From Amyelois transitella (lineage: Eukaryota > Arthropoda > Insecta > Lepidoptera > Pyralidae): a DNA stretch of 64,000 nt. A program made the translations under genes and the position numbers. The DNA is taken from NCBI RefSeq assembly GCF_032362555.1, contig NC_083520.1:8866001-8930000 (forward strand). The letters run 5' to 3'. The notes below the pieces were generated by a model that saw only the letters and a program-made list of their open reading frames with translations, had not been told where the DNA came from and ran no database searches. Positions within the stretch are counted from its first letter, which is position 1; each line of letters starts with the position of its first letter. This document shows positions 6,932 to 39,015 of the stretch, piece by piece.

Positions 6932-9900
6932 ATGAGCTCAGAAAACAAACCAAAGAACATTCCAGCATACGCGAACTTCTTGATAGGTGGAGGAGCAGGG
7001 TAATCTTCTTTATATGTTCTTCATTTAGGTACAACAAAAAACAATATTAAAGAGAGAAACGAAGACGAAGGAGCTTAGCTGACAAGAGCCAACTCCACCA
7101 TCGCGCTTTTACCAAATAATATGTTTCATACATACATACAAATAATCACGTATATATCCATTGCGGGGTAGACAGAGCCAGCAGTCTTTTAAAGACTGCA
7201 AGGCCTCTCACCCAGGTGATAAAACCTGGGTGATCAAAGTGGAATAAACCGTCCAATGATGGAATCGAAATCGTGACAGGTTGCTTACCCATCGTCTAAG
7301 AGATAATTCCCATGTTTATAAGCCTATCCTTTTTACGACGAGAAAGGTATGGAATGGTTCTATTCTAAAATACCGGAAACCACACGGCACCAAAACCATT
7401 GTAATTAATATGTTTATAAAATGTTTTAAACTGAAAGGCCACGTTCAGCTGTGTGTTTTAGTGATATAACTTAGATTAAAATAGTGACAGGTTGCTAATC
7501 CATCGTTTAAAAGATGAATCCCAAGTTTATAAGCCAATTTTACAATCTACAGGAAGAGATAAGCAGCTGGTACACACTATGTTTTTTCTTCGATACCACA
7601 CTGAATATTCCTTTAGTCGCTTGTGCTTTTTTACTTCACTCTATAATGTTCACTATATTATCTAGAGTATTAGCAAGATGCGTGGTCCATCCAGCGGATT
7701 TAATCAAGACTCGAATGCAATTGGGCCCAAAAAATCAGTCGTTTACGAACACGGTCAGACAAATCGTGGCAAGAGATGGCGTTGTGGGACTCTATGCAGG
7801 AATCTCGGCAGCACTGTTCCGTCAGGGGACTTATACCACTGCAAGATTCGGTTTCTTCAATATTATGTTTGATTATTATAAGGGGTGAGTGGCTTTTTAA
7901 AATAGTATCCTTTTCACAATACGTGCATGTAGTACTTGAAAAATGAAAATGAAAAATATTTTATTTGGAAACAAAAACAAGTACAATTTAAGTAACATAG
8001 GATAACGATGACATTTTGACATTGACACTTCCTTACATAAATACATACATATAATCACGTCTTTATCCCGTGCGGGGTAGACAGAGCTAACAGTCTTGAA
8101 AAGCCTGATAGGCCACGGTCAGCTATTTAGCTTTTATTGAGATTCAAATAGTGACAGGTTGTTAGCCCATGGCCTGAAAGAACAATCCCAGGTTTATAAG
8201 CCTATACTAAGCTAAGCCATACTATATGTACTATACTATATACGTATATATACTATACTATAGGTACTTCCATTTTGAATTTATAGCCAAACTAGCTTAT
8301 GTTCGGGACTTCGTATGCGCCAATTGGAACGGAAAAGTTGAACTTTCAATAAATAATCCCTTAGTGTCATTTTGCTTCTTAGAGCATGAGCATGGAATTG
8401 CCAATTTTAAACCTTACTGTATGCAGTATAAGGTGTCTTTTAGTCAGACCTGCAATTTTTTATCCACCGCGTTCCACTTTACAACGCAAAGTGGGTACCA
8501 ACGTAGGGTTCATTATATATTTTTATTTAATTTCTCCACCTAAAGACACAGATTATCACGTAATCCTAATTAACATATTTCTAATGAATCTTAATTCAAT
8601 GTGTGTTTGTATTCTATAGGATTTACAAGAAACATGTATTTTTAACGCAGTGCTTATGGCATGCCAGGGTTTGGGGCGAAGCTGGTGCTGGGTCTGATTT
8701 CTGGCGGTCTCAGCGCGATTATCGGCAACCCTGGGGAGGTGGTGCTGGTCAGGATGACCGCGGACGGCCATCTACCTCCGGGGAAGAGGAGGGATTATAA
8801 GAATGTCTTCAACGCTCTGAGCAGGTATTTCATGGAGCCTTTTAACATCATCATCTGTGCCTAATTGGATTTGAAGAAAAAATTGTTTATTGGCTCGGGT
8901 TTTTACTTTAGTTACCTGTATCTACTATACATACAAACACATACATTTGGTCACGTCTATATCTCTTGCGGAGTAGGCAGAGCCAACAGTCAATTCAGCT
9001 GAAGGCCTTATGAATTAAGATTCAAATTATGACAGGTTGCTTGCCCATCGCCTACAAGAGTCTACCTATACCTATACGAGTATATTTGTATATATCTAAT
9101 ATGTATCTTATAGTAATGCAACGTCAATTTGTAGCCCGTGCCTCTACCCACAGACCTGACTTAATCAATATATTAACACTATATTGCCCTATTAAGATTC
9201 TGTTGGTAATAGACGAAAAGATCGCATCAAATGCACTTCTACTTCTTCAATGCAACTAGTAAGTTTCTCGGAAGACAAATGAGTGTCTGACGAGTGTTCG
9301 ACTGAATTGTGGTCTAAGGCGGACACGACATTGATTGTATACCTCTCGCAATGGATTACCTGAATCGAATCAGCTCAGATTATCGAGAATCTATATCAAG
9401 GGAATCTCATTACATAATTCAGTTAGAACAGGTTTAATGGGCTTCAATCAATCGTATTAGCAAGATTTGTCGTTAGGTACAACTCTTGCGCACAGCCTTG
9501 CTCGCATGGGAAGTTAAATCGTAAGCTGTCATCCATAAATCGTGAGGAAACCTTGCACATTAAGGCAACTGAATGTGCATCTGTGATCCATTTTTTTTTT
9601 TTTTTATTCATTATTATAGGATACTATTATATTATATCGCTTAATAATTGTCGTATGGTTTAACAACTTGGTTGACGTCAAATAAATTACTTAAAAACTA
9701 AGTTTACTGCCGCTTCCAAGGCGTCAGTGCAGAAGAAGCGGTAACAAACTGCACTGCAGCATTTTCTTCAACAACGTCAACTTCACAATATTAAATTATA
9801 CTTAGAATAGAATGTGGACGGGAGAATACATTGTTCACGGGAGATTTATATATTTATGACATTTAATATTGAAAAAAGAAAAATATATATATGTATATAT

Positions 9901-12125
9901 ATTATATATTTTATGGATGGATATATGGAAAAATATATATATATATATATTTTATGGATTGCCAATTTTAAAAAGATTTATGTACAGAGTGTACTGAAAT
10001 TTTGATTTAAGTTCAAATTAAACTACATTATGCATTATGCTTAATACATTATGCATTATGCTTAATACATTATGCATTAAGTTCCACTGCGGAGGTCAGA
10101 CGGGAGTAACTTAATGTAAAAACCTGCTTACCCAATCCAGGATCACGTCACAGGAGAACCCCGAGGTCCTCTCCAGAAAGGTGAGAAATCTGAATATGAA
10201 ATTTGTTCTGTGGAACTGTCCGTTGAATCATGCTGACTCAATCTGAACAATTTCTATGAAAATAAAGCGATTTCTGATTGATTTATCACAGAATGATAAA
10301 AGAGGAGGGGCTGGCGACGCTATGGCGAGGAACGTCGTCCACTGTGGTCAGAGCTATGATCGTGAATGCTGCACAACTTGGGACTTACGCGCAGGTCAGA
10401 TAGGGTCTTTCCCATCATATGTTTTTATTATATTTTGCCGCCGTGTGGTTCTCGGCACATTCAACTAGTGCAGCTTCTACATGATCCAATATGGTTCAGG
10501 GTTCTTTGCAGAGGTTGCCGAATACTGATGGGTGTCGTTTCGTGTAAAACCCTGACTGATTCAATCCTGGATACAACCATACATAAAATCTCTTTCAGGA
10601 AGGGGTAGGCAGAGACTACCTCTTTCCACTTGCCACGATCTCTGCACACTTCCTTCGCTTCATCCGCATTCATAACTCTCTTCATACAAGCTCGGCGGTT
10701 TCGGGTACTCTTGACCTGACCCTTTACCAGGACGTCCTTAATTTAATCAAGATACGTTCGTCTAGGCCTTCCCACTCCTGGATCAAGATTAAAGTCCTCA
10801 CCACAAGCTCTCCAGAGAGGTGAGGGTATAACCGTAATGCCAGGGGGAAGAATATTCGTGAATTATATACTTTTGCAACTCACGATCACTAAGTATAGTC
10901 GTTTGGGATAAAGTAGGTCTGTGTTTAATCCCTAAATTTCGTTTGGGATGTATTGTATCATAGATGCTTATAACTTCATTTGATTTGCTATTTCCTCTTG
11001 AATGCACTAAACTGTCTTACCAGTTGACTAACTGTGACTTAGATATTGATGCAATTAACTATAAAGTTTTTTGTTTCGAACTAATTCTCTTCACCAGGCT
11101 AGGGAGATGCTCCTGCCAACTCTGGGTGAAGGTCTGCTGCTCCAGTTCTGTGCGTCCATGATATCAGGTGTCGTGACCAGCGTCGCTTCGTTACCCATTG
11201 ATATCGTCAAGACAAGGTAAACTAATTAAGGGTCCTTACCTTACTTTAACTTATTCCCAATAGACCCTTTCTCAACAGAATTTAAAAGACGGGTGACAAG
11301 TCAAACAGCTTTGAAAATCTGCACATACTGTTAATAAATATATGTGCCGTGTGGTTCCCGGCACCAATAGAAAAAATAATAGGACCACTCCATTTCTTTC
11401 CCATGGGTGTCGTAAAAGGCGACTAAGGGATAGGCTTATAAACTTGGGATTCTTCTTTTAGGCGATGGGCTAGCAACCTGTCACTATTTGAATCTCAATT
11501 CTATCATTAAGCCTTACAGCTGAACGTAGCCTCTCTGTCTTTCAAGACAGCTAGCTCTATCTACCCTGCAAGGGCTATAGACGTGATTACATGTATGTAT
11601 GTAAATACACGTCAGATTCGATAATTATTAAATATCAGAAAACCGGTCAAGGTGAAGAAAAATGTCAGAAATTCGCATATTCAAGAAACTGAACCAATTT
11701 ACAAAATACCTAAGCTAAATCAGGTCAAGGCGGTCAGGTGGCAGTCTTTCCGTGTAAATTACCTATTTTCACACTCCTGGATCGTAATAATAGACCCTGT
11801 TATCCTTCCAAGGGATACTGCAACCGGTACAAAACGTCAGGAGATGACTGTTAACTAAACTAACATTTAAAAAAAAAACATCTACCTACTCCATAAGCAA
11901 TTTCCATAACCCAGTTAAATTTCCCACAGAGTGCAGAATGCGACAGAAGGGGCGAGTCAGTTTAAAGTTTTCTTCGACATCATCAAATACGAGGGGCCAC
12001 TGGCTCTGTGGAACGGATTTCTGCCGTGCCTTATCAAGGTCGCCCCCCACACTATACTCACATTCATGTTCTTTGAACAGCTGGTCGTGCTGTATCGTAT
12101 GATAGAAGGAGGGCCCATAAAATGA
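6932..12125 (+). CDS. Mitochondrial 2-oxoglutarate/malate carrier paralogue 1 (SLC25A11 type)
   Basis: The six exons are 6932-6999, 7666-7884, 8651-8824, 10292-10394, 11098-11216 and 11930-12125, encoding 292 residues. Intron phases are 2,2,2,0,2. It is a three-repeat SLC25 carrier of the inner mitochondrial membrane. Signature motifs are HPADLIKTRMQ (repeat 1), NPGEVVLVRM (repeat 2, the OGC-type variant with Leu/Val for Lys) and LPIDIVKTR (repeat 3). The TYTTAR and MTADG stretches are typical of 2-oxoglutarate carriers. The helix-6 stretch reads CLIKVAPHT where the canonical copy at 22599-28436 has YYARLGPHT, so a proposed substrate-contact Arg is Lys. The start ATG gives a short hydrophilic leader before the first helix. 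Exon 3 begins at the cag ending at 8650, because a TAA blocks the earlier acceptor. The family is sure; the exact transported substrate is not. Confidence 0.88.
7128..7402 (-). repeat. SINE family 1, near full-length, diverged
   Basis: Read on the minus strand, the copy runs from the accacacggc head (near 7380-7400) to the (atgt)n tail at 7128. It has many substitutions and a small insertion around the cacccaggtg stretch. It occupies intron 1 of carrier paralogue 1. A second fragment with the tgacaggttgctaatccatcg block follows at 7435-7545. Confidence 0.7.
8038..8215 (-). repeat. SINE family 1, partial
   Basis: The tail (catacatataatcacgtc), the gcggggtagacagagc block, the gtgacaggttgttagccca block and the ggtttataagcctat block are present. 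The head is missing. It lies in intron 2 of carrier paralogue 1. Confidence 0.75.
8930..9070 (-). repeat. SINE family 1, partial
   Basis: The tail, the cacgtctatatctcttgcgg block and the gacaggttgcttgcccatcg block are recognisable; the remainder is missing. It lies in intron 3 of carrier paralogue 1. Confidence 0.65.
9588..9790 (-). mobile_element. Non-LTR retrotransposon 3' end, family A
   Basis: A poly-T run is followed by a block containing ggtttaacaacttggttgac, the ccgcttccaaggcgtcagtg block and gcagaagaagcggtaac. The same block recurs at 24282-24450, also after a T-rich run, as expected for 5'-truncated LINE copies inserted in reverse. The related family B ends at 14058-14556 and 18365-18530 share the ccgcttccaa and gcagcatttt motifs. 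Confidence 0.6.
10024..10082 (+). repeat. Short tandem repeat, 21-bp unit, about 2.7 copies
   Basis: The unit tacattatgcattatgcttaa is repeated head to tail. It lies in intron 3 of carrier paralogue 1, beside a (TA)n-rich stretch at about 9880-9950. Confidence 0.85.
10584..10785 (-). mobile_element. Family-2 LINE 3' fragment with reverse-transcriptase C-terminal coding remnant
   Basis: On the minus strand the sequence reads as the end of an insect LINE protein: a basic segment, then MKRVMNADEAKEV, CRDRGKWKEVVSAYP and a stop region. It is followed by the short 3' end with ctacccc and an aaagag-type block. Similar fragments occur at 23605-23868, 31828-31930, 58360-58447, 59380-59640, 59930-60030 and 60661-60870. 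It lies in intron 4 of carrier paralogue 1. Confidence 0.65.
11344..11604 (+). repeat. SINE family 1, full-length
   Basis: The copy begins gtgccgtgtggttcccggca and runs through aggaccactcc, gtcgtaaaaggcgactaagg, ggcgatgggctagcaacctg, the tctatctaccctgcaaggg block and an (atgt)n tail. It lies in intron 5 of carrier paralogue 1. Confidence 0.88.
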
Positions 12126-12915: not shown

Positions 12916-15900
12916 TCAAATTCTTTCCAAAACCAAAAACTTAACTAGCGCATGTGACGTCATTCTGATAAAATATGGAGGAAAACCTCTCAATAGGCCA
13001 AAGAAGCCTCTTGTTCGCAATAAATGCTTCATTATAGATATTTGAGTGTCGTTTTTGTTCTTCGATAACTGATAACTGAAAATGAAAAGGTACTAAAGAA
13101 TACCAACTACTAAAGTTCTAATTAATAACTAGTGAACCGCTCCGGCTTCGCACGGGTAGAGACCTGTTCCAGAAAACCCTCTTTCCGATATTTCAAACAG
13201 GAAAAAACCATCCAAAACTTTCCGAGATTAGTGCATACATACAGACACAGAAAATAGGGGACTTAATGATATGTAGCAATAGAGAAATTATTTGTACCTT
13301 CTTTTGATTGCAACGTAATATGATAGACTGGTAAATTCTTATAGCATTAAGTCTGCCTATATTTCTACACACTTGTATCTTATACTATAAAAATAAGTTG
13401 ACTAAATAATTGCGAACTGATGAAATTAGTCACAGAAATAGAATAGACTTATGAGTAACATATAGGCTACTTTTTATCTGAAAATTTCCCTCAGAAGTGC
13501 CCCTGACAAAAGTCTAGCAAACAATTAAAAACAGGCAGAAAATATATCTCACAAGGATTTCAAAAGGTCCACAGGATGTGTCAGGAGTGCACTAATTAAA
13601 TGCGTCAGAACCAAAGAACATATCGCCAAAGTATGCTCATTATTTGTCACTTGGTACTGTTTTAGGCGCGCCGGTATCTATAAGGAAATTGAATGAAAAG
13701 AAAGTTAAGGTCAATAGTACCATTCCTAAAAAAGGAAAATAAGCCGTCTAACCTACTAGTCTCATTGAATTGTCCCATGGGACAAGTGACAATAACGAAA
13801 CCTTCTCAGTGGTCCCACCATGGGACGGATTAGTGGGATAGATGGGATAATAGGTAAAGAACTGTTAGTTGCTAGCTGCTAGAAAGGTCAGCTCAAAAGT
13901 ACTCAAAAGCAACAAACTGGTATGAAAATATTAATTAATGTTAAGGAATCAAAAGATTCAAGGATCATGCCAAGGAAGATGTAACTTCTATCTAACCGTA
14001 ATCCCTCTGGGAACTTAGTCCTAAGTCGCCTTTTACGACATCCATGGAAACGAGATGGAGTAGAATAGAATAGATTTATTTTCAAAATTGGATACAAGGT
14101 ATCACTTATTGACGTCACATCACATCTTAAATCTAATTATAACTACCACCGCTTCCAAAGCGCATGTGTAGAAGAAGCGGCGGAACAAACTACACTGCAG
14201 CATTTTCATCGGACGTCAATGTACAAATATAGATCTCTTAAATCTAAATCATGGACGAATACAGATTGTCTACATTAAAAAACATGAATGAATGTAGAAC
14301 TAGTTATTTCAATACGAATTCGATATTTCGTCAAATAAATAAAGATAAAATAAAATATGTACACACTGTACAAATTATGTCAACTCCATGTCAAAAATGC
14401 ACAAGCATTTAAGAGGCCATTATGTCAAGCTCGGGCCACACATGTTTATCATTAATATAATCCTCCGTGGTGTAATAGGCTTTCCTACAAAGCTCATCTT
14501 TAATGTACTTTTTGAATTTTCTATCATTCATTTCAAGAACACTTTTTGGTAATTTATTATGAGTGGTCCTATTGTTTTTTTATTGGTGCCGGGAACCACA
14601 CGGCACTGTGTTCTTACCTACACCAAAAACGGTGTTACTTCAGAGCTGATCACGTATACCTACTCTTAACCTAAGTTATTTGAAGAGATCACAGCTTTAA
14701 TTTAAGAACGACTGCCAAAATATTTGGAATACTAATACTTCGAGTATTACGTACCATCAAATACTCTTCGCATCCAATGTGAATGGTACTAACCATCACA
14801 GTTCTAAGTAGGGTCAGGTTCCACCCACGCATCAACCCGACAAACCCTTCTTCCCGAATGATTCTGTAAAATTATTATACATTGACTATATTTCCACTTC
14901 TATTGGTGCCGTGTGGTTCCTGGCACCAATAGAAAAAAGAATAGGACCACTCCATCTCTCTCCCATGGATGTCGTAAAAGGCGACTAAGGGGTAGGCTTA
15001 TAAACTTGGGATTCTTCTTTCAGGCGATGGGCTAGCGACCTGTCACTATTTGAATCTTAATTCTATTTTAAAGCCAAATAGCTGAACGTGGCCTATCAGT
15101 CTTTTTTAAAACTGTTGGCTCTGTCTAAAACGCAAGGGATATAGACGTGATTATATGTATTGATGTCCAGTTCTACTATAATATAGGTGATATACTGACC
15201 GGTTGGTTGAATGGCATACCAACACACAACTCAATCGGCTGAGGCTAGAGATTTGAAATTTAGCATGCGTAGGTTACAAATCTACATGGTGTTGAAGTGC
15301 ACCTACCTACCTATGTAAATAAATTTAATCAACCTACCTTTAATTCCCGACAATTTTATGTGTTCAAAATCCACTTGACTCTTTCAAATATTGTAGGAGA
15401 ATCTAGGTATGTGAAATCTGAACAAAATTATAATGATATCCCTGTAATGAGTTCTTTTTTCCTGCCATGTTCCACTGGGGAACACGGTTTTGGACTTTAT
15501 GGTCATGTTTCGCTGACGCTGACTATAATATATACTTACTTACGAAGAGAATCAAGCGTTCCTTTAGCCACACCATCGCATTTACAACGGCCACTGGGAG
15601 TTGAGAAGTGACAGCCCTCCGCCATGCGCCTGACCAGTACCATTTCACTAGGACATCCCACCAGCCCCCCAGCCATACTTGAAATAATTCCGATCAACAT
15701 TTTTGTGTGACTAGACGGAACCTCGTTGTAAGTTCTAAAAGAAATTATTAAATTAACATATTGAGAAAGGAAACTATTGTAAGGGAAAGTGTAACATAAT
15801 TCTTATCTTCAGCATTTTTCTTAAGAGCTCCATGCTGTACTTGTCTTATTCAAACTGTATTATCTTTTATGTACTCCTTATCCTCCTAGCGTTGGTCCCG

Positions 15901-16928
15901 ATTGGATCCCGTTTGGATTCGGATCGAGAATTACTTTCTTAATATCCCACGTGAGTTGTCAATTGCCAACAAATCCTTTACATCCCATATGAAGTGCCAT
16001 TTGCACGATGGTTATATTTGGAGACTTCAGGAATACCATAAAATAAAAGGGAAAAAATTGGGCCACATAAATTTAGGATTTAGCCAAAAACACTCCTCGC
16101 AGAGATGTCTATTTGACACTTTATAATATAACAATAATAAATAAATTGACAATTTAGAATAATAAGTATCCTTTCTTAACGCAGAAGGATTAAATGCTTT
16201 TGGTAATTCTTTATCAACCGCCAGAATTTTTAAGAAAGAAAAACAATAGGTTTCCTCACCCAGTATACCTATCGCAGAGGATTTCATACACTGCCAACCT
16301 GGTCGCAATATTGGTCGCTTGCCTCATCAGACCAGCCGTCAGACCGCAATAAAACGTCTTCAGACCCTCACTCTTGTAGATCTGCCTCGCTATCTTGAAC
16401 GTACCGCATCGTCTCGACGATATTTGACGACGAATCTTGAGCAAATCGAGTGGATGAGTTACAAGCGTCGCCACCATTCTGAAATCCACAAGGCGAATAA
16501 CGGAAAATACATTTTACGTAGGCGAAACTGCGCACATAATCTACTAATAGTAATTTTTTTTTGCAAATCATTTGTAAATTGACGTCCGGTGATGATGCTG
16601 CAGTGTACTTTTTCTACCCCTGTCTGCACTTCGGAAGCGGTAGTAGATATACTTAAGTTGACGTCAATAAGCAATACCTTGTATCCCATTTTAAAAATAA
16701 ATCTATTTCCTGTTGCACCCTCTGCTTCTGGACCCTGGATATCATACTCATGATCTGAATTCTGAGATCGAGCTCTTCCCTAGGGATGTATGTAGTTAAT
16801 TGAGACATTATTACAACTTCCAAACCGAGGCTTCTGCAGTCTGAACCCTATTAAAAAATTCACAGCATGTTTTACCCAGCAGTTACTCCTTCGGTAATGT
16901 AAACAATCTTTTTTGAATCCAGTGGCAT
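12916..16928 (-). CDS. Highly divergent mitochondrial carrier paralogue 2 of the OGC cluster
   Basis: The six exons on the minus strand are 16928-16876, 16478-16260, 15734-15540, 14863-14755, 13656-13553 and 13075-12916. They encode 279 residues with no stop and the same phases (2,2,2,0,2) as the other copies. It starts MPLDSKKIVYITEGVTAG. The carrier motifs are HPLDLLKIRRQ, CPSEMVLVRR and HPVDLLKS, and the loop segments are EGLKTFYCGLTAG, REEGFVGLMRGW and RGFFGLLRGFPPYF. Landmarks kept in the other copies are changed: TYTTTR becomes NIATR, VNAAQLGTY becomes VSTIHIGCE, and RLGPHT becomes RMTSHA. Exon 3 uses the second of three overlapping GTAAG-type donors, which restores the frame. Exon 5 is 15 nt shorter than in its siblings. 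It is either a functional, fast-evolving carrier of altered specificity or a recent pseudogene not yet broken; the open frame and splice sites favour the first. Confidence 0.78.
13129..13500 (-). mobile_element. Helitron-like fragment, decayed
   Basis: The left edge actagtgaaccgctccggct followed by tcgcacgggt matches the reversed 3' end of the Helitron copies at 23869-24056 and 39016-39198. The following sequence (agaaaaccctctttcc and so on) resembles that at 46700 and 47230. The right edge is unclear. It lies in intron 5 of carrier paralogue 2. Confidence 0.5.
13960..14607 (-). repeat. SINE family 1 copy split by a LINE insertion
   Basis: The block cgccttttacgacatccatgg plus gagatggag ends at about 14057. 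The matching continuation tggtcctatt and attggtgccgggaaccacac resumes at about 14557. The sequence between belongs to a reverse-oriented LINE 3' end, so the LINE landed in an existing SINE. Confidence 0.75.
14058..14556 (-). mobile_element. 5'-truncated non-LTR retrotransposon (family B)
   Basis: On the minus strand a reading frame from about 14549 to a TAA at 14409-14411 encodes LPKSVLEMNDRKFKKYIK, AYYTTEDYIND and a short tail. This resembles the extreme C-terminus of Jockey/CR1-type reverse transcriptases. It is followed by an untranslated tail with gcagcatttt, the ccgcttccaa block, and an AT-rich end (taaatctattctattc read in reverse). It lies in intron 4 of carrier paralogue 2. Confidence 0.65.
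14906..15163 (+). repeat. SINE family 1, full-length
   Basis: The copy runs from gtgccgtgtggttcctggca to atagacgtgattatatgta with all internal blocks. It lies in intron 3 of carrier paralogue 2, on the strand opposite to the gene. Confidence 0.85.
16555..16712 (+). mobile_element. LINE family B 3' end fragment
   Basis: The plus strand carries gacgtccggtgatgatgctg, a gcacttcggaagcggtag block and ataccttgtatcccattttaaa. This is the reverse complement of the tails at 14058 and 18365. It lies in intron 1 of carrier paralogue 2. Confidence 0.6.
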
Positions 16929-18065: not shown

Positions 18066-21000
18066 TTATTTTTTCGGTGGCGGCTCAGGATTTAAATGAC
18101 GATACAGGGCAATCAGTTGCTCCATAAATATGAAGGTGAAGACTGTGTGAGGGCCCAACTTCCCGAAGGTCGGCAGGAATCCGCTCCACAACGCCAGGGG
18201 ACCCTCGTTTCTGATGATGCTCAAGAATACTTGAATTTGACTCACCCCGTGCGTTGAGTTTTGAACTCTAGTGGAAGAAAAATAAGAGAGATATAACATA
18301 CATACTATTTATTATGGTTCTTCCCTGCATAACTGCTCAAAAACAAAGAGCGTGTACTAGAAGTGTAAAGAATAGAATATATTTATTTTCAAAATTGGAC
18401 ACAAGGTATCACTTATTACCGTCACATCACTTAAATCTAATTATAACTACAACCGCTTCCAAAGCGCATGTGTAGAAGAAGCGGCGGAACAAATTACACT
18501 GCAGCATTTTCACCGGACGTGTGACCAGAGTGTGTATAGTGTAGTGCGTGTAGTATATAAGGTGTGTTTGGTGTGTAGTGTGTAAAGTCCTCTTAAAAGA
18601 AATGGAGGATCAAGTGGAGCCTCCATATATGCCTCAGGGCTCCAAGTCCTCTTTTAATAAGATCAAAGTAGCCGTTTATAGCAGTTTTCTCACCTGGTTT
18701 TGACGATGTCCACGGGCAGCGAAGCCCAGGTGGTGACGGCGCCCGAGATCATGGACGAGCAGAAGTGGAGGAACATCCCGTCGCCCAGGGAAGGCAGTAG
18801 CATCTCTCTAGCCTGCCATCAATAAACTGTTAAGCTGAACTAGAATTAGCTCCGAAGCGAAAACCCCGAGTAGACTAGTATCTGCTCCAAATACTCATTC
18901 AATTAGCTGTTAAAAATTCATGATTCTTGGTAAACGAGAATGATATCTAACCTTTATGATATTCATTCATTCATTCATACAATCACATCCATAGCCCTTG
19001 CGGGGTAGACAAAGCCAGTAGCCTTGAAAGACTGGCAGGCCACGTTTAGCTTTATGGCTTAGTAATGGAATTAAAATTTAAATAGTGACAGGTTGCTAGC
19101 CCACCGCTTACATAAAAAACCACACAGCACACGGCACTTTATGATATCGGGATGAGATTAAACCAAAAATAAGAAATAATCGGTAGTTGGACCCTAAAAC
19201 TTAATTGGGAATTATAGGTACAATTAGTGAACTTTATGTTAAAAGCATTCTCCACCTTTAGAAAATAGTAAACATAAAAATTCATTAGGTGTCAATTCGG
19301 AAGAAATTCAATAAAATGTTACATTTATAGATAAAAATGAATAAGAATATAGATAAACTTACATAAATGTTGTTCATATAAAGTAGGAAATGTTGAATAA
19401 TTCCTCACTTTCAATTATATTTTATACCTGAGTGTAGGTGCCAAGCTGTGCTGCATTCACCACCATGGCCCTGGTGACAGTCGCAGCCACTCCTCGCCAT
19501 AAAGTGAGCACACCTTCCTCCCTCGTTATCCTGCAATAAAAAAAATATATTTTTTTTTACCTCATGGCATTTTTTTGTCAGAACACAAGTTTCGAACTTA
19601 CTTCGAGGTTAACTCAATCAGTGTTATTTGTCCTGTATTAGATTTTTATTTATTTATTATATCCCGCTAGTGCGACGCCTGTAGTCGGCGTTCTGCTATA
19701 TTTCCATCAACAGCTCCTATACCGACCATCATGCCTTAAGTCAACATACCCACAAATCAAATTTCATACTCCTCCTGCAAGTACCTGCCAAGTGCATTGA
19801 AGATGTGCTTGTAGTTTCGTCTCTGAGACGCCGGCAGTCGACCGTCTGCCGTCATTCTGATCAGGGCGACCTCTGCTGGGTTTCCCACCACAGCGCCAAT
19901 AGCCCCGGCAGTCATGCCCAGGGTCAGCTTGCCACCGAAGCTAGGTGTGCCAAATGATCTGCACAAATTTGATGTCAATTATATATGTAGTACCTTTCTA
20001 TCAAGATTATAGTCTATTGAACTTAAATCGGATTTATAATGGTCGTGTAGTTCCCAGCACATCAGAATTGGACCACTCAATCTCTTTCCCTAGGATGTCG
20101 TAAAAGGTGGAAAAGGTGACAAGTAATTTTTAATTGTTTACTATGATCTAAACTGGACTTTTGGAAATCTTTACGTGTTAATTTGATTTACCCATTCGTG
20201 GTTAAAAGTCGCAGGTGGAACCCGGATTCAGAAGAATAAATGAATCAGAATGCAATGAGTCAGAAGAAGAAGAAGAACCAGAGAACTTATCTCACCCGGT
20301 ATAATAATCTGTCAACACGTTGAAACTACCAATTCTAGCAGTAGTATACGTGGCTTGGCGAAACAGAGCTGCCGACAGACCCGTGTAGAACCCTCTCATA
20401 CCCTCGCATCTGATGATTTCCTTGGCTACGGTATAAAGAGTCTCCTCCTTCGCCTTTGGACCTAGCAGCTGCATTCTGGTTTTAACTAAGTCTGCAGGTT
20501 GAACCACACATATCGCCAACATTCTAAAATTTAAAAGAGCATAAGATTGCTTTATTGACGATGAGCTTTTGCGCGAGACTTCGCTCCGGTGGGAAATTGC
20601 AGAAAAAATCATATGTTAGTCTCGAAGGTTTATACTATCTGTGCAAAATTTGGTGTAAATCAGTCCAGTAGTTTTTGAGTTTTTTCGTTGCAAACATACA
20701 AAAATACAAATCTTTTCTCTTCTTTTCTCCTTTTGAGCTTAGAGAGTTGAAAGTCTCTTTCCAAAAATAAACACACAAGGTAAACTAAACTGCCTTAGCT
20801 ATGCTTTGTTTAATAGATGCTTGTAGCGGGTAACGATGTGTTGAGCGATAAGATCAAGCCTGATAATATTTAAATTTTAGATCTGCCTCTGGATTAAATG
20901 TAATTCCTAAGGGAACATGTATTCACTATAATAGTCAACTCGACTCTCGACTCGGCACCACGCCCTACACTGGGATATTCAATCGTATAAGTATAAGCCG

Positions 21001-21272
21001 TATATCTTCACATCTTTCCCATTGATGTCGTAAAAAGCAACTAAGGAATAGGCTTGTAGCGGGAGGCAGGCGTAACCTGGCGGAAGATCTTCCCTTTGGT
21101 GGCGATCGAGATCGAATCGGGATTGTTTTTCTATCATAGTAAGTAACTACAAAATGGGATATGAACCTTACCCGCTAGTTCCGCCTATCAGAAAATTGAT
21201 AAGAGGTGGAAGGGGCTTTGGTTTTGGTGCTCCATCCTTAGACTTCTGAGGCTGTTTTCCTTCCTTACTCAT
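18066..21272 (-). CDS. Mitochondrial 2-oxoglutarate/malate carrier paralogue 3 (SLC25A11 type)
   Basis: The six exons on the minus strand are 21272-21172, 20523-20296, 19958-19785, 19530-19428, 18812-18694 and 18267-18066, giving 308 residues with phases 2,2,2,0,2. The N-terminal leader is longer than in the siblings, with a Lys/Pro-rich stretch (MSKEGKQPQKSKDG onward) before FLIGG. Carrier motifs are QPADLVKTRMQ, NPAEVALIRMTADG and LPVDIVKTR. Helix 2 has RQATYTTAR and helix 4 has RAMVVNAAQLGTY, both canonical. Helix 6 has FGKLGPHTVFTF, with Lys where the canonical copy has Arg. The C-terminus PEPPPKK is basic and proline-rich. The AAAAAATAA end places the stop inside an AATAAA hexamer. The transporter family is sure; the substrate is inferred. 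Confidence 0.9.
18365..18530 (-). mobile_element. LINE family B 3' end fragment
   Basis: The sequence is close to the tail at 14058-14230: ttattttcaaaattggacac, the ccgcttccaaagcgcatgtg block and gcagcattttcaccggacgt. A GT-rich stretch follows to about 18590. It lies in intron 5 of carrier paralogue 3. Confidence 0.65.
18967..19139 (-). repeat. SINE family 1, diverged
   Basis: The copy keeps a catacaatcaca tail, the cttgcggggtagacaaagcc block, gtgacaggttgctagccca and a trace of the accacacggcac head. The middle is deleted. It lies in intron 4 of carrier paralogue 3. Confidence 0.7.
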
Positions 21273-21731
21273 TCTACCACTGGTATTATTATGCCTTACA
21301 AAACGATATTAATGTTTTGAACCATATTATCGTTTTTTTTTTGTTTTTCGCTTTTATTGGATGGCCATGATTTTGAGCCAACTATTGCATGATTTTGTTT
21401 GTATGATTGAGTTTATTATGTACGTTTTTGACATACATTGACTTTTGAAGACGTCTCTCATGCCAGTAGACATTAACATTTTTTGGGATACGGTAGACCG
21501 GACAATGGCAAAACGCGAAGAAGACCATAGAAATGGAATCCTAATATTTTGAATGGGAAAATAATTTTGTTTGTTTGTTTGTTATATTATTCGAGCATCC
21601 TTAACTTAAAATAATTAAGGATATAATGTAGCAAACTGTCACTTTGAAGCCGTCCAGCTTAACGTGGCCTTTGTGGGTAATAAACATTGGTTTTGTATGT
21701 AGGAGATACAGACGCGATTAAAGTCATACAC

Positions 21732-21812
21732 GCCTTGGCTTTGTGGAGCGGGTTCCTGCCCATTTACGCTATGATTGAGCCCCACGCTGAAGTCACCATA
21801 GAAATGGAAATA
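21732..21812 (+). pseudogene. Decayed fragment of a carrier exon 6, opposite strand
   Basis: The plus strand reads ALALWSGFLPIYAMIEPHAE in one frame. This aligns with PLALWSGFLPTFGKLGPHTV of carrier paralogue 3, with Glu replacing Leu-Gly and Ala replacing Thr. There is no splice acceptor in phase, and the match fades after about 27 codons. It sits between a SINE family 1 tail (21610-21725) and a tRNA-type SINE remnant (21830-21910). It is a relic of another, oppositely oriented copy. Confidence 0.65.
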
Positions 21813-22598: not shown

Positions 22599-25500
22599 TC
22601 ATTGCGCTGTATACTTGAAGTAGGCAGCGTTCATTTGCTCCAAAAAGATGAATGTCAACACGGTGTGTGGTCCCAGACGGGCGTAGTACGGCAGGAAGCC
22701 CTTCCAGAGAGATAGCACGCCCTCTTTGCGAAGCAGGTCTGTAACCACGGTCACCTGACTCTGGCCTTTGGCAGCATTTTGAATTCTATAATTGCGAATT
22801 ATAATTTACTGGTTCATTTTGTCATATGTTTACTGATACTTAGTTTCACATATATCCTACTACTATTATAAAGGCGAAAGTTTGTATGGATGTATGGATG
22901 TTTGTTACTCTTTCACGCAAAAACTACTGAACCGATTACCATGATATTTGGTATGTAGGTAGCTGAAGACCCAGAATAACACATAGGCTACTTTTTATCC
23001 CAGAGTTCCCGCGGGATTGATAGGGTTTCCATGCGGACGAAGTCGCGGGCGACCTCTAGTGTTTATATGTATTTTGCTCACGTTTGGGAATTGTGTTGAT
23101 ATGCCACATCCAATTTAGCTCTAAATTTTTTTAGCTCTTACTTCGAGTAAAACTTTGGATATATGTAATCCCTTACTAATTTATAAATGCGAAAGTCTAT
23201 CTCTCTGTGCATATAGTTAAAACCGGCGTTCTAAAATAGAATACTTTTTTCAAAAATCAACCCCTTATAATAAAATGGGGGGTGAAAGTTATGTGTGTAT
23301 GAAAATCAAAATGCTATCTGTACTAAGCAGGGGCAGGTTGCTAGTAAACTATATTGCGATAAATACCATTAAAATCATTAATTAAAATATTATATTTTTG
23401 AAAACAAAAAGCGATGAACTGCTTTACTCCATACGAATACCAGAGGACAATATACAAACCTACTGATTACGCAGTCAGCCTCCTAGCTGTTAGCATATCA
23501 ATAGTCACAAAGATTCTAAGGTCTCTAAGCAGACGGCATGTGATGAAATTGAGACTCAGCTAGCCCATAGACTAGAAAAAGAATCCCAAGTTTGTAAGAT
23601 ACATACATAAAATCACGCCTCTTTCCCGGAGGGGTAGGCAGAGACTACCTCTTTCCACTTGCCACGATCTCTGCATACTTCCTTATCCGGTCACTCAATT
23701 TCACACCCATCATACTACTTAACGCTCTCATTTCCACTGCATTTATTCTGCTTTCGTGCTTCTTTTGCCATACCCAACTTTCACTCCCATACATTAAGTT
23801 TGTAAAAATTTCCTCGTTTTGGACCAAATAGTATGTAGCAGTATGGTAGACCAGCATGGAACGGCATATCACTACATAGTATAAAACAAAGTCGCTATTT
23901 TAGTCTGTTTGTCTGTATGCTTAAATCTTTAAAATTACGCAACGGATTTTGATGCGGTTTTTTGTAACAGGTAGAGTGATTCAAGAGGAAGGTTTTTATG
24001 TATACTTAATACCATTTATAATTTTGCACCCGTGCGAAGCCGGGGCGGGTCGCTAGTCTATAATAATCCACCTTTACCTGGTCTTGATGATGTCCACAGG
24101 CATAGACGCGATCGTGGTGATGAGACCTGACACCATAGACGCACAGAAATGGAGTCCAATGCCGTCTGGTACTAACGCCAGGAACATCTCACGAGCCTGC
24201 AGTATAATTTATTGCGCGTGACACGACGAAGTTTATTAATAAGAATGATGCAACATATTCAAAAAATTCAATTCAAAATTCAAAATTTTTATTCATTACT
24301 ATAGGATACTATATATCGCTTAATAATTGCCAAAACGTATGGTTTAACAACATTGGTTAACGTCAAATAAATTACTTAAAAACTAAGTTTACTGCCGCTT
24401 CCAAGGCGTCAGTGCAGAAGAAGCGGTAACAAACTGCACCGCAGCATTTTCTTCTTCTTCTTCTTCTTGAATAAAACATACGTTACAGCACAAAAAGAGG
24501 CAGTACAAAGCTATATTTACAGACGGCCTCTGTGGCGCAGCGGTAGTACGCTTGTCTGTGACACCGGAGGTCCCGGGTTCGAATCCCGGCCAGGTCATGA
24601 TGGGAAAAGAACTTTTTCTGATTGGCCTGGGTCTTGGATGTTTATCTATATAAGTACCACTACATAGTATAAAACAAAGTCGCTATTTTAGTCTGTTTGT
24701 CTGTATGCTTAAATCTTTAAAATTACGCAACGGATTTTGATGCGGTTTTTTGTAAAAGGTAGAGTGATTCAAGGGGAAGGTTTTTATGTATAATTTTTTC
24801 CGAGTTTTGCACCCGTGCGAAGCCGGGGCGGGTCGCTAGTTTATTATAAAATATAGTATCGTTGAGCTAGTATCTCGTAACACAAGTCTCGAACTTACTT
24901 CGAGGCTAACTCAAGCTGTGTAATTTTTGTCCAAAAAAAAACTTATCAGGTTGAGATGGCAGTCCCTTCGTGTAGAAACCTAACTCACTCAATTTAGGAT
25001 CCATGGTCAAAAGCATACCCCAGGCTCTTCTCCAGAATGGTGAGGATGCAACTGGGACTAAAGCCGACTAACGAGTGGACTGGTTGACTTATCGCTAAAG
25101 CAATCTCTTCCAGTTAACCTTTTCGATTTCGGGTTAAAATTTGGTATGTAGGTAGCTGAAGACACAAAATAACATATGGGCTACTTTTTCACCCGGAGTA
25201 CCCGCGGGATTGATAGGGTTACCATGCGGACGAAGTCGCGGGCAGCCTCTAGTTTCTTAATAATTTCTTAATAATATATTTATAGTTATATTATAGTGCC
25301 GTGTATACTTAATGGTATATTATAGTGCCGTGTGGTTCCCGGGTGCCGTGTGGTTCCCGGCATTAATACAAAAAAGAATAGGACCACTCCATCTCTTTCC
25401 CATGGATGTCGTAAAAGGCGACTAAGGGATAGGCTTAAAAACTTGGGTTTCTTTTAGGCGATGGGCAAGCAACCTGTCACTATTTGAATCTCAATTCTAT

Positions 25501-28436
25501 CATTAAGCCAAATAGCTTAACGTGGCCATTCAGTCTTTTCAAAACTGTTGGCTCTGTCTACCATGCAAGGGATATAGACGTGACCATATGTATATATTTA
25601 TAACCTGTGAATATGTGCCAAGTTGCGCCGCGTTGACCACCATGGCGCGGGCGACGGTGGGCGTGGCGCCCCGCCATAGTTTAAGTACACCCTCTTCTCT
25701 TATTATTCTGAAGAAAAAAAAGCAATATAGCAACAAGCCACTTTATATACGTTAACAACCCTGTAAGTAACCTGAATGTATATGATTCCTCATGATGTGT
25801 TCGCTTGACTAGATTAGTAAATAACTATTGTTTTAGGCTCATTATAAAAAAGAACATACTTACATACATACATATGATCACGTCTTTATCCCTTGCGGGG
25901 TAGACAGAGCCAACTGTCTTGAAAAGACTGATAGGCCACGTTCAGCTGTTTGGCTTAATGATAGAATTGTGATTCAAGTAGTGACAGGTTGCTAGCCCTA
26001 TGATGTTTTCACTTGAATTTAGTTATTTGAAATTAGTAGGTAAATTTAAACTATTGTTTTAGGCTCATTATAAAAAAGAAGAAGTTATTAATTCTACTTT
26101 TACAACGGTTCAAAGAAAGAACTAAGGTGATTGTTGGTGTAAATCAATCCTTCTAGATCTAAATCCTCTAAAAGAAGCACGTATAGATAGACAGATAGAA
26201 TAGAATACCGTTTATTGTACATACAATTATAACAACAATTTTATCCTAAACTTATGTTTAGCTAATGTACCTACAAAAGTTACTTTAATATACTGTTGTC
26301 GCGACTGAACTCTCGACAGTTGACATACTTTCCTTCCATACGGGCACCATATTTTACAAACCTCAACAAAGCATCGGCCACGTTCTTGTAGTTCCTCCTC
26401 TGTTCCTTGGGCAGTCTCCCGTCAGCCGTCATGCGGATGAGGGCCACCTCCGCCGGGGTGCCCACGAACGCGCCTATAGAACCCGCGGCCACACCCATCA
26501 GAGTTTTTATACCAAAACCGGGCGCTGTCTTGTTTGTTCTGGAATATTCGACAAGCGGTCAAACAGCGGTCATACGAACAGAGGGGTTAGTGCGAGTATT
26601 ACTCGCTACACGTGAATTTGTATGTGATTCAATCGCCGCCATCTAGTGCCGTGTGGTTCCCGGCATCAATACAAAAAAGAATGGGACCACTCCATCTCTT
26701 TTCCGTGGATGTCGTAAAAGGCGACTAAGGGATAGGTTTATAAACTTGGGATTCCTCTTTTAGGCGATGGGCTAGCAACCTGTCACTATTTGAATCTCAA
26801 TTCTCGCTCTTCACAATTCAAATAGTGACAGGTTGCGAGCCCATCGCCTTAAAAAGAATCCCAAGTTTGTCAGCCCATCCCTTAGTCTCCTTTTACGATA
26901 TCCATGGGAAAGAGATGAAGTGGTCCTATTAAAAAGAGATTTTAGAACTTATCCGACTGCGGCAACATCTCTACGCCACAAGTCACAACAGTCAATCACG
27001 TGACGCTATCAGCCAATAACAGCGAAGAGTCTAAATCGCGCAAGCAAAGATTTCAAGGGTTGGAGCATATATACCTACAACCTCCGACACAACATCGTCG
27101 GAGCCGCGATTCCCCAGGCATAACACCTAGCTCTTCAAAGCAACATAAATAATTTATCAAAGTGCTTGATGTAATATTAAATCCATACTCACTCCTTATA
27201 CGTGTCAAAGAGATAGTTAAAAACTCCTAATCGGGTAGTTGTGTAGGTAGCTTGTCTTAGTAGACCGGCAGAGAGACCAGAGTATATTGCGAGGAGTCCC
27301 TCCTTAGCTATGATCTCCTTCCCGACCGTGAAAGAAGACTTGTTACCACCGCCTAGTTGCATTCTTGTTTTTATCAAGTCCAGTGGCTGCACCACACAAG
27401 TTGCTGCCATGCTAGGAACAAAATAATCGAAAATCGCAAATTGGGAACCTCCTCTTTTTCTCCTCCAGTTTTGATGGAGTGCCGGCGAGTCACAAGTGGA
27501 TAATACCAACATACATACATACATATGGTCACGTCCATATCCCATGCGGGGTAGACTGAGCCTAAAAAGAATAGGACTACTACATCTCATCGATGGGCTA
27601 GCAACCTGTCACTATTTGAATCTCAATTCTACCATTAAGCCAAATAGCTGAACGTGGCCATTCAGGCTCTGTCTACCCCGCAAGGGCCATATGTATGTTT
27701 GTATGTAATATTTATACTAAACCTGTCTCGGTGTAAGGGGGCCTTTTCCTTTCGCAAGGCCCTCTGAAGTGAAAACTAAGCTAGCCTAGTCCAAATGTAG
27801 TTTAGGCCTTGCGTAACCACTGAGCATTGGAACCTAATACATATTCGATCCTAGTTGTTTTATTAAAGATGCTTTCGCCTGGACATCATTTTAATTTGAT
27901 TCTCGATAGCAGTCTTTCCCAAAGTGGGCGATAACGCCCCCTTGTGGGCGCTGCAGGTCTCAAGGGGGGCGGTAAGAGACCCGGAAAGAAAATGAGGGCG
28001 TTGTGTAGAGCATTATATACATATATAGGTCACAATAATTAATTAAACTAATTTGAAGTTATTGTGGTTTTTAAATAGGTAAAAAAATGGGGGCGCTAAA
28101 AAAATATTTATTCTCAAAGTGGGCAGTAGACAAAATAAGTTTGGGACTCTCTGCTCTATAGCAAAAGCTTTTGTGGCCGGGCCAGGATGGAACATCTGAC
28201 TTTCTCACGATGTTTTCCCTCACCGTACTTAAATCAATTAGCAATCATTGGTAAAAGTTCGCTAGGATCCTCAGGTTTAAACTTGTGCTATTTTAGGGCG
28301 AGAATGTACCTTAGAAATTTAAACTGCCGACGCTCTATTTTATATAATAAAAACCGAAAACTTACCCAGAAAGTCCTCCAAATGCGAATTTCAGTGCATT
28401 TGGAATATATCTCTCCGCTGGCGGTTGTTTGGCCAT
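22599..28436 (-). CDS. Mitochondrial 2-oxoglutarate/malate carrier, canonical copy (SLC25A11 orthologue-like)
   Basis: The six exons on the minus strand are 28436-28366, 27411-27193, 26538-26362, 25707-25605, 24196-24078 and 22785-22599, giving 291 residues with phases 2,2,2,0,2. The family exchanges 2-oxoglutarate for malate across the inner mitochondrial membrane in the malate-aspartate shuttle. Motifs are QPLDLIKTRMQ, TPAEVALIRMTADGRLP and MPVDIIKTR. Helix 2 has GLLRQATYTTTR, helix 4 has RAMVVNAAQLGTYSQ and helix 6 has YYARLGPHTVLTFIFLEQM. These are nearly the remembered vertebrate sequence, so this copy is probably the conserved one and the others derived paralogues. Introns hold Helitrons, SINEs, LINE ends and a hAT MITE. 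The exon 3 donor is GTTTGT, a weak match to consensus. Confidence 0.93.
22855..23059 (+). mobile_element. Non-autonomous Helitron, type 2
   Basis: The element begins TCCTACTACTATTATAAAGG and ends gacctctag before a T, fitting TC to CTAG insertion between A and T. It includes ctttcacgcaaaaactactg and aagtcgcgggcg. Related copies are at 25137-25252 (5'-truncated) and 39776-39985. It lies in intron 5 of the canonical carrier gene. Confidence 0.75.
23605..23868 (-). mobile_element. Family-2 LINE 3' fragment with internal deletion
   Basis: On the minus strand LMYGSESWVWQKKHESRIN and AVEMRALSSMMGVKLSDRIR match the typical end region of insect LINE reverse transcriptases. The frame then jumps directly to the final untranslated block (gtgattttatgtatg tail). 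The segment seen at 10584-10785 (NADEAKEVCRDR) is missing, so this copy has a deletion of several hundred bases. Its upstream part is cut off by the Helitron at 23869. Confidence 0.75.
23869..24056 (+). mobile_element. Non-autonomous Helitron, type 1
   Basis: The element starts TCACTACATAGTATAAAAC and ends gggcgggtcgctag, with an ACCCG/CGGGT stem just before the end. The host bases are A on the left and T on the right. It is nearly identical to 24657-24839 and 39016-39198. It inserted into the LINE fragment to its left. Confidence 0.8.
24282..24450 (-). mobile_element. LINE family A 3' end fragment
   Basis: The sequence matches 9588-9790 (ggtttaacaacattggttaa, ccgcttccaaggcgtcagtg). It is followed by a short (ttc)n run at 24448-24468. 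It lies in intron 4 of the canonical carrier gene. Confidence 0.65.
24526..24655 (+). repeat. tRNA-derived SINE
   Basis: The head has a good A box (tggcgcagcggtag) and a perfect B box (gggttcgaatcccgg), followed by a unique body with cttttctgattggcctggg and a tatctatataagta end. The acceptor-stem halves do not pair well, so it is a SINE and not a tRNA gene. Related remnants are at 21830-21910, 31488-31540 and 31795-31820. Confidence 0.75.
24657..24839 (+). mobile_element. Non-autonomous Helitron, type 1
   Basis: This is a second copy of the 23869-24056 element, with the same ends and a small change at the start (ccactacatag). It directly follows the tRNA-derived SINE in intron 4 of the canonical carrier gene. 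Confidence 0.78.
25318..25597 (+). repeat. SINE family 1, full-length with duplicated head
   Basis: The head gtgccgtgtggttcccgg occurs twice in a row (25318 and 25342). The normal body and tail follow, ending just upstream of exon 25605-25707, so the tail abuts the splice donor of that minus-strand exon. Confidence 0.85.
25866..26000 (-). repeat. SINE family 1, partial
   Basis: The tail, the ccttgcggggtagacagagcc block, ggccacgttcagctgtttgg and gtgacaggttgctagccc are present; the head half is missing. It lies in intron 3 of the canonical carrier gene. Confidence 0.8.
26645..26936. repeat. Inverted pair of SINE family 1 copies
   Basis: A plus-strand copy (26645-26804) stops at gaatctcaattct. 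A minus-strand copy (about 26817-26936) starts within the same block, so two arms of about 115 bp face each other with a spacer of about 20 nt. It lies in intron 2 of the canonical carrier gene, so the pre-mRNA could fold into a long hairpin. Confidence 0.8.
27508..27705. repeat. Composite of SINE family 1 pieces
   Basis: A minus-strand tail piece (catacatacatatggtcacg to gtagactgagcc) is joined directly to a plus-strand piece (aagaataggactactac to atgtatgtttgtatg) with internal deletions. It lies in intron 1 of the canonical carrier gene. Confidence 0.7.
27910..28153. mobile_element. hAT-type MITE with 8-bp target duplication
   Basis: The left end is CAGTCTTTCCCAAAGTGGGC. The right end, reversed, is CAGAGAGTCCCAAAC. 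Flanking 8-mers are ctcgatag (27902-27909) and ctctatag (28154-28161), which differ by one base. The interior is G-rich (gggggcg blocks) and non-coding. It lies in intron 1 of the canonical carrier gene. Confidence 0.8.
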
Positions 28437-33544: not shown

Positions 33545-34345
33545 TTATTCATCATCAAAGTAATCAACATGTTCCCCAGGGGTGAACAGGCCTGCCTGCA
33601 GAACTTTCACACACTTCTGAGCTGTCATTTCAGGCTTCAGCAGAGTACCTTGCCTTTTGAAAGAAGTGAATACATCTTTCAAGTTGTCATTCACCGCTTC
33701 GGTGAGGACAAAATCAATCATGGCCGTCTCCACGGGCCCCGGGGAATAGTTAAGTACTTTGATGTGAGCCTTCTCAGCTGCCAACACTTTGAAATACATC
33801 TCCCTAGCTGCTTTACCACTGCAATAGTAAGCCATACCCCCCATTGGCTTGATAGCGCAGAGAGATGTTATGTTCACAATCACAACTCTATCATCTATCT
33901 CCTCAAAGATCTTGAGAAACTGAGTATTCAGGGAAATAACTTTAAACACATTGAGATCATAGTAATCCCTCAATTCATCCACATCGTCCATCTTCCATGT
34001 CTCCACAGCCAGGTTACCAAGAGAACCGACATTGTGAAAAATTAAAGATGTAACAAATCCCTTCACATCCCGCCCTTCTAGGGACTTGCGTAAGAGACCA
34101 TACATCTCAGAATTAGAAGACTTTGACAAATCAACCGACTCATAACGAACCTCCACATTAGGTGATGCGCATAGTTCTGCAGTTTTTGCCAACTCAATCT
34201 TGTTTCGTGCTAAAAGTAGCATCAGAGATTTAGGGCCGAGAAGTTTTGCAACTTCAACTGCGATAGCCCTGCCGATGCCTTGTGAGGCTCCTGAGACTAC
34301 ACAGTAAGTTGTTCCAGTCAAGTCGACTTGGGATGATGTAGCCAT
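33545..34345 (-). CDS. SPR: Sepiapterin reductase
   Basis: An intact single-exon frame of 266 residues starts at ATG 34345. This NADPH-dependent short-chain dehydrogenase makes tetrahydrobiopterin in the cytosol; in insects it also feeds pteridine pigments. The Rossmann motif is SGASQGIGRAIA (residues about 18-29), followed by LLLARNK. HNVGSLG stands in place of NNAG. The catalytic Ser is in NITSLCAIKP, with Tyr and Lys in YCSGK (the YxxxK motif), then SPGPVETAM. Length is close to the vertebrate enzyme. The C-terminus HVDYFDDE overlaps an AATAAA hexamer with the stop. The ATG lies 32 nt after the stop of the CCDC32-like frame. The product call rests on fold motifs plus the remembered SPR sequence. 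Confidence 0.9.
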   Translation of the reverse strand: MATSSQVDLTGTTYCVVSGASQGIGRAIAVEVAKLLGPKSLMLLLARNKIELAKTAELCASPNVEVRYESVDLSKSSNSEMYGLLRKSLEGRDVKGFVTSLIFHNVGSLGNLAVETWKMDDVDELRDYYDLNVFKVISLNTQFLKIFEEIDDRVVIVNITSLCAIKPMGGMAYYCSGKAAREMYFKVLAAEKAHIKVLNYSPGPVETAMIDFVLTEAVNDNLKDVFTSFKRQGTLLKPEMTAQKCVKVLQAGLFTPGEHVDYFDDE

Positions 34346-34377
34346 GATTACTTACAGTAGTTCTTGTGGATTGATAG

Positions 34378-37084: not shown

Positions 37085-37642
37085 CTTTCTATACCTACCA
37101 ATTTTGTCTTTGATACGGGCGGGCCGCGGCTTGCGCCGCCATTCTGGATATTTTGACGGGAAGGTCGGTCACGTGACACGGCGACGGGCGAGGGGCGCGG
37201 GGCGCCGGCTAGACTCTCCAGTAGCCGAGCCATCCGTCTGCTGCTTTGACTGCGGCCAGTCGCCGGAATCTACGCCCCAGTCTCAGGCGCTCGCCTTTAT
37301 TACGTCCTATTTCTTTCTCATGTTGCGATCGATTTGTAATCGAAATATTACTTCACTGAATGGAATGTGTCTCTATAGTGCGTGTTATATTTATATCTTG
37401 CAAAAAACACTTTCAAAACTGTGATAAACCGACATAAATTTTCATATTTTTGCACGGGTGTGCGAGTGGCGACGGGGCGGAGACGCCGCAAACGGGCGGC
37501 ATTCGCTCGGCCCGGCCGTCGCGACGGCTCAGCGCTAGTCAGACATGTTTCGATCGCGGCCGCAGAGCGTCGCGCTTGCCGGCGCGTAGGTCGCTCGTGA
37601 CATGCGCCTCTCGAGGTCCAGCGACGGTGGGGGTGACCGAAT
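37085..37642 (+). promoter_or_regulatory. GC- and CpG-rich 5' region of the Ski gene
   Basis: Base composition changes sharply to GC-rich with many CpGs (gcggcttgcgccgccattct, ggcgacgggcgaggggcgcg, gcggccgcagagcgtcgcgc) in an AT-rich background. The region leads directly into the Ski start codon. It is probably the promoter and 5' untranslated region, although GC-rich coding leaders were considered. An in-frame TGA at 37634-37636 closes the frame upstream of the ATG. Confidence 0.6.
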
Positions 37643-38449: not shown

Positions 38450-39015
38450 GTAGGAGTCCAATTAGTAAATATTTGGTAAAAATCGTAGGGGATTCCTAGC
38501 TGAATCTGATTGGAATTCTTCCAACGATTGCCATGATCGTTTTTCATGTTACCTCACTCACCTAATTATATTATGTATTTTGCAATTTACGATCAATGAC
38601 ATTTTTAGGTACCTACTTGATCCTCACAAAGGAATGTAAAGAGATGAGAACTAAAAGGTAAAAGCGATATCTGTTGTGCGTTACTATATCTACTACCTAC
38701 ACGAATGATCTTACGAGAATCTTATTGGATGACACGACTCATAGTAGGTGAATATGAGACCCTTTCGTTTGTAAACAAGTCGTTTGTTATTCAAGGAGAG
38801 CTGTTAGAATTAAAATAACAATAATCAGGGCCGCATTGAGAGAACTGGGAGCCTTAGGGCAACAAGCGGCGAACGAACCCATTATTATTATTTTCCGAGT
38901 AAAAGTAATATTTATTATTTCTGCCCTTGTATTTAAAAAAAATATTTTATAACAAGTGAAAATAATTTAAAAAATCTAATACACCTGTATTGGATTCTTT
39001 ATTTTTTAATTACTA

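Follow-up and report, generated by a model that had tools for sequence, protein, structure and literature searches.

Does a gene copy that has diverged far from its relatives, with its reading frame still open, encode a maintained protein? This question is raised by a predicted gene on the minus strand of a 64,000-nucleotide stretch of the Amyelois transitella genome, referred to here as the window (positions 8866001-8930000 of contig NC_083520.1, C16 in our numbering). The initial annotation described six short exons, traced through intact frames and splice sites, of a fast-evolving carrier gene that is still open. Rebuilt from these coordinates, the exons give 840 nt in frame for a protein of 279 amino acids, running from an ATG at 16928 to a TGA at 12916-12918 with no internal stop and with GT-AG borders at all five introns. 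The gene, called copy E below, is thus both divergent from its relatives and free of stops, as described. Its protein contains three stretches matching the Pfam domain Mito_carr (PF00153; E = 5.9e-43), and the three PX[DE] signatures that had been read from the DNA (PLD, PSE and PVD) are present in the motifs PLDLLK, PSEMVL and PVDLLK. The second motif lacks the basic residue K/R, as it does in the other copies of the array described below. Copy E has the tandem arrangement of three Mito_carr repeats with PX[DE]XX[KR]-type motifs by which the SLC25 mitochondrial carrier family is recognized.

Table 1 Exons of copy E and related features. Positions are those of the window unless preceded by C16; the ends of copies D, F and G were computed from their models.
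Feature	Position	Strand	Description
Copy A	C16:8843764-8854062 (outside window)	+	Conserved OGC, nearest to copy G
Copy B	C16:8858023-8864004 (outside window)	+	Sister of copy E, 47% identical
Copy D	6932..12125	+	Six-exon OGC-type paralogue, 292 aa
Copy E exon 6	12916..13075	-	160 nt including stop; helix 6; protein ends a few residues earlier than copy B
Copy E exon 5	13553..13677	-	125 nt; acceptor corrected from 13656 to 13677; PVDLLK motif
Copy E exon 4	14755..14863	-	109 nt; helix 4 including contact arginine
Copy E exon 3	15540..15734	-	195 nt; PSEMVL motif; matrix loop with cysteines
Copy E exon 2	16260..16478	-	219 nt; first PX[DE] motif PLDLLK; helix 2 RQATNIATR
Copy E exon 1	16876..16928	-	ATG at 16928; in-frame TAG 12 nt upstream of ATG
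Loop-bearing exon 3 of E and B	E: 15540-15734; B: L011 5131-5328 = C16:8861131-8861328		Cysteine-rich loop
Copy F	18066..21272	-	Six-exon OGC-type paralogue, 308 aa, sister of D
Exon-6-like relic	21708..21797	+	30 aa, 47% identical to G; between copies F and G
Copy G	22599..28436	-	Conserved OGC, 291 aa, nearest to A

The splice sites were scored with a matrix built from the 25 introns of the other five array genes, whose left-out scores serve as reference. Four of the five junctions proposed in the initial annotation stand as the best found. The fifth, the acceptor of exon 5 at 13656, is probably wrong: its score of -4.0 lies below all 25 left-out values. The acceptor at 13677 scores 3.1 (above 6 of 25), keeps the frame, and gives an exon of 125 nt with the same first residue as in copy B. 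On site score and exon length 13656 is set aside and 13677 is the more likely acceptor, which yields a corrected model of 286 residues, again without stop or frameshift. The strongest acceptor of the three, at 13725 in intron 4 (10.8, above 24 of 25), would bring in a stop four codons further on. Exon 3 ends in a set of three overlapping donors, namely 15544 (GTAAGT, -0.2), 15540 (GTAAGT, 6.8) and 15536 (GTATAT, 1.4). The earlier choice of 15540 is upheld, since this site has the top score and is the only one of the three that keeps the frame. The donors of introns 4 and 5 are weak (14755, 3.3, above 1 of 25; 13553, 3.6, above 2 of 25), and that of intron 5 is homologous to an even weaker donor in copy B.

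Short exons in a tandem cluster with many repeats raise the possibility that copy E is an artefact of assembly or modelling, in which pieces of several copies have been joined by chance, the more so as aligning to relatives, which is how the models were made, biases them towards agreement. The spliced alignments speak strongly against this. With the copy B protein as query, the copy E locus scores 516.5, compared with -54.5 to -118 for 24 decoys (12 overlapping stretches on both strands, from about 29501 to 60700 of the window). The aligner lacks an acceptor model, and in this run it placed exons 4 and 5 of copy E and the last part of its exon 6 wrongly. By tblastn, five of the six exons match copy B, and the short, divergent exon 1 agrees in 3 of 17 residues. 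As the intron positions also fit the family, we regard a chance assembly as extremely improbable. A further suggestion of the initial annotation was that automated gene finding might miss this gene. A Pfam scan of the genome, with 150 of 170 candidates scored, matched two of the six copy E exons singly at E <= 0.001, and tblastn with the conserved copy G recovered three of six at E <= 0.05.

Copy E belongs to an array that we mapped by tblastn of 114 kb and by spliced models. Six intact genes of the oxoglutarate carrier (OGC) type, A, B, D, E, F and G, lie within about 51 kb. The model of copy B was assembled from runs with two queries, because either query alone misplaced at least one exon. 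All six gene models carry five introns at the same columns and in the same phases. A further carrier of this genome (L019), which we take from reading its sequence to be of the dicarboxylate type, shares none of these intron positions, although its first two exons are poorly modelled. Searches of the 327 Mb assembly (33 contigs) returned 32 matches with copy E, the best 10 of which lie in the array, and 63 with copy G, the best 14 of which lie there; the remainder is a mix of further array exons, other carriers and weak matches. The exon-6-like relic between copies F and G is apparently what remains of a lost seventh OGC-type copy; no further exon of it was found among tblastn matches at E <= 0.05.

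The array genes form three pairs, A/G, B/E and D/F; in each, the member in the left half lies on the plus strand and that in the right half on the minus strand. This arrangement suggests an inverted block duplication as the origin of the array, but the gene order is not a mirror image. A blastn comparison of the two halves gave 275 rows, of which 20 fall in low-copy stretches; these 20 correspond to coding exons or to short pieces resembling repeats, and no long flank is shared. Differences at four-fold sites amount to 0.59 for B/E, 0.60 for D/F and 0.43 for A/G, the first two being near saturation.

Elsewhere in the window, the minus strand at 40337-42232 holds an open frame of 631 aa with a full-length DDE_Tnp_1_7 match (2e-85), piggyBac-like by reading; as the frame is uninterrupted, the element has perhaps been active recently. 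A shorter minus-strand frame at 51908-52237 appears by eye to be the start of a related copy and has no Pfam match. On the plus strand, 37637-38479 encodes Ski/Sno Dachshund-homology (5.7e-45) and Smad4-binding (3.9e-25) domains; further long open frames, in other reading frames and on either strand, overlap it. A minus-strand short-chain dehydrogenase of 268 aa at 33545-34351 (open frame; 1.4e-19) is sepiapterin-reductase-like by reading.

Protein identities within the array are 85% for A/G, 60% for D/F, 47% for B/E and 34% for E/G. The tree, for which L019 served as the sole outgroup locus (carrier loci L020-L023 were left out owing to poor spliced models or because they are other carriers), groups B with E (100/100), D with F (99.6/99) and A with G against the rest (98.2/97). 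The B/E pair sits on a long branch, and five of the six topologies tested are acceptable for its root. Copies A, D, F and G agree in 126 columns. In 50 of these, both B and E depart from the common residue, in 26 of them to the same residue; B alone is changed in a further 9 columns, and E alone in 15. Copy E as a lone drifting copy is therefore ruled out, since copy B has 26 of the same changes. The shared changes most simply predate copy E, placing much of the divergence before the B/E split.

Most of these 26 changes, though not all, are likely to be new. In the outgroup alignment, which covers 25 of the shared columns, human OGC agrees with A, D, F and G at 18 columns and with B and E at 1. 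The dicarboxylate-type carrier agrees with A, D, F and G at 10 columns, with B and E at 6 and with neither group at 9, so not all of the shared changes need be new. Our preferred reading, to which we assign a probability of about 0.65, is that copy E codes for protein, is a tandem paralogue of the mitochondrial 2-oxoglutarate carrier (SLC25A11 type) and forms with its sister B an old, fast-evolving pair in a six-gene cluster. The sequence itself shows its gene structure, its kinship within the array and the constraint on the B/E pair; the shared introns and the common cluster speak for descent from the OGC lineage, which the long B/E branch makes less certain.

That constraint bears on a further claim of the initial annotation, in which the intact frame suggested selection. 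For the B/E pair the claim is supported: dN/dS is 0.22 and w = 1 is rejected (2dlnL 62). With B and E tied on the tree, w is 0.23-0.24, which again rejects w = 1, here by a margin of about 31 log units. The other pairs give pairwise dN/dS values of 0.15 (D/F) and 0.09 (A/G). For copy E alone the support is moderate, as three tests favour constraint and a codon model of its terminal branch gives w = 0.56 with a likelihood no better than at w = 1. Other models place w on this branch at 0.26 (B and stem free) or 0.36 (all branches free). Stem dS estimates in the branch models exceed 20, and the free-ratio fit returns w = 19 for copy G at a dS of 0.001. The log likelihood of one nested model, in which E is fixed at 1, exceeds that of its parent by 0.09 units, which means that the optimiser had converged incompletely; single-branch w values are therefore not relied on.

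The three tests, which are not fully independent of one another, address the copy E branch directly. Copy E keeps 52 of 67 columns that are invariant in the other five genes, compared with 40.6 expected under w = 1 (p = 0.0023), the ancestor being represented by the copy B sequence. Where the other five genes share the same nucleotide, copy E has changed at first codon positions in 22 of 93 cases, at second positions in 24 of 144 and at third positions in 9 of 17. Third positions show an excess over first and second together (9/17 vs 46/237, p = 0.0033), though they are few, and B, F and A give no significant result in this test. Among 1500 neutral simulations with 0.276 changes per site, again starting from copy B in place of the ancestor, 0.13% remained free of stops. 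Together, the tests favour past constraint on copy E, a result also compatible with recent loss.

Copy E could thus have been constrained for most of its history and have lost its function recently, the frame being unbroken so far. The weak donors of introns 4 and 5, the stronger intron 4 acceptor that leads to a stop, and the codon model on the E branch, which is compatible with w = 1, would all fit such a loss, as would the number of otherwise invariant residues that copy E has lost (15 of 67, compared with 9 of 61 in copy B). Set against this are the 286 codons without stop or frameshift, the three tests just described, and the even weaker homologue of the intron 5 donor in copy B. Moreover, clear decay was noticed in one array copy, of which a single exon fragment is left. 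We consider recent loss fairly unlikely and continue with copy E as a coding paralogue.

What such a paralogue might transport can be judged from its residues, numbered here after the human OGC sequence; this numbering fits published residue numbers. A docking study places the contact arginines of OGC at R90, R190 and R288 (PMC8393474). All three are kept in E and B; copies D and F carry K at 288. Copy E further resembles OGC (SLC25A11) in its three Mito_carr repeats and in its matrix-gate pattern (PLDLLK/PSEMVL/PVDLLK), and its gene structure is that of the conserved OGC copies A and G. It differs in its low identity to copy G and in several OGC landmarks, whose replacement had been noted at the outset and is evident in the protein: NAAQL of helix 4 reads STIHI, GPHT of helix 6 reads TSHA, and TYTTTR reads TNIATR. 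Near the contact arginine of helix 4, NAAQL is SIVHI in copy B, A191 is S or T, and the N, Q and L of this motif are among the 26 changes common to B and E. Residues kept in B and lost in E include Y94 and T95, near the helix-2 arginine, the R-E pair closing helix 4, T293 and a few positions at the C-terminus. The cytosolic gate of copy E appears degenerate by reading. Both B and E have a longer, cysteine-rich matrix loop (GCLPCPAKCGRGCC in B, GCHFSTPSGRCKC in E) that is absent from the other four copies. Several of their cysteines, 10 in B and 9 in E compared with 2-3 in A, D, F and G, lie in this loop.

These features could mean, in line with the new role proposed in the initial annotation, that B and E are neofunctionalised carriers that have given up oxoglutarate exchange for a different substrate or a regulated leak. 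Some of the 26 common changes fall in helix 4 near the contact arginine; contact point II, on helix 4, is said to discriminate substrate classes (PMC7611774). The longer, cysteine-rich matrix loop points the same way. However, neither the three contact arginines nor the matrix-gate pattern departs from OGC, and carboxylate binding therefore need not have changed. Neofunctionalisation of this kind is in our view distinctly unlikely. From the residues retained and replaced, we infer that copy E would be a carboxylate carrier with altered selectivity or rate. As an OGC-type paralogue, its protein would lie in the mitochondrial inner membrane as a six-helix carrier, bind a small carboxylate through the three retained arginines and move it by alternating opening of the matrix and cytosolic gates; the changed residues near the arginines and the cytosolic gate may alter its selectivity or rate.

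Dicarboxylate carriers (SLC25A10) and uncoupling proteins belong to the same superfamily as copy E, and the dicarboxylate-type L019 differs from it in intron positions. Among solved structures, UCP1 and UCP2 match the copy E protein best by sequence, partly reflecting which structures have been solved. Copy E also matches a ciliate oxoglutarate carrier of solved structure.

For the role of such a copy in the organism, the closest published descriptions concern duplicated mitochondrial genes of flies, among them CG7514, which we take to be OGC-like, and CG18418. CG18418 carries an annotation as oxoglutarate:malate antiporter (PMC2912381). A second paper names it as a gene under positive selection within a set of relocated duplicates with a tendency towards testis specificity (PMC3167187), and both genes appear in a list of 15 mitochondrial retrogenes of which 87% are testis-expressed (PMC1839131). 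The likeness to the array lies in the duplication of mitochondrial genes as published; in contrast to the fly genes, listed there as retrogenes, the array copies are tandem and have kept all introns. By this analogy copy E might have a tissue-restricted job, perhaps in the male germ line, a guess prompted by the fly duplicates and by nothing in this genome. Highly unlikely is the further idea that B and E make up a hitherto undescribed subfamily of carriers in this insect lineage, with a redox- or metal-sensing cysteine-rich matrix loop, a less tight cytosolic gate and an altered carboxylate selectivity, and that they have been retained for the unusual mitochondria of developing sperm. Our literature search found no report of an oxoglutarate carrier expansion or testis copy in Lepidoptera, and the main texts of the lepidopteran sperm and testis studies checked mention no oxoglutarate or carrier.

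In a survey of arthropod transporters, SLC25 is the least size-variable SLC family (PMC7487162). Against this background, six OGC-type genes in three pairs with very unequal rates form a useful natural series, in which one may ask which carrier residues can change while the frame is kept. The array would also offer, in another insect group, a concrete case for the idea of germ-line duplicates that comes from flies.
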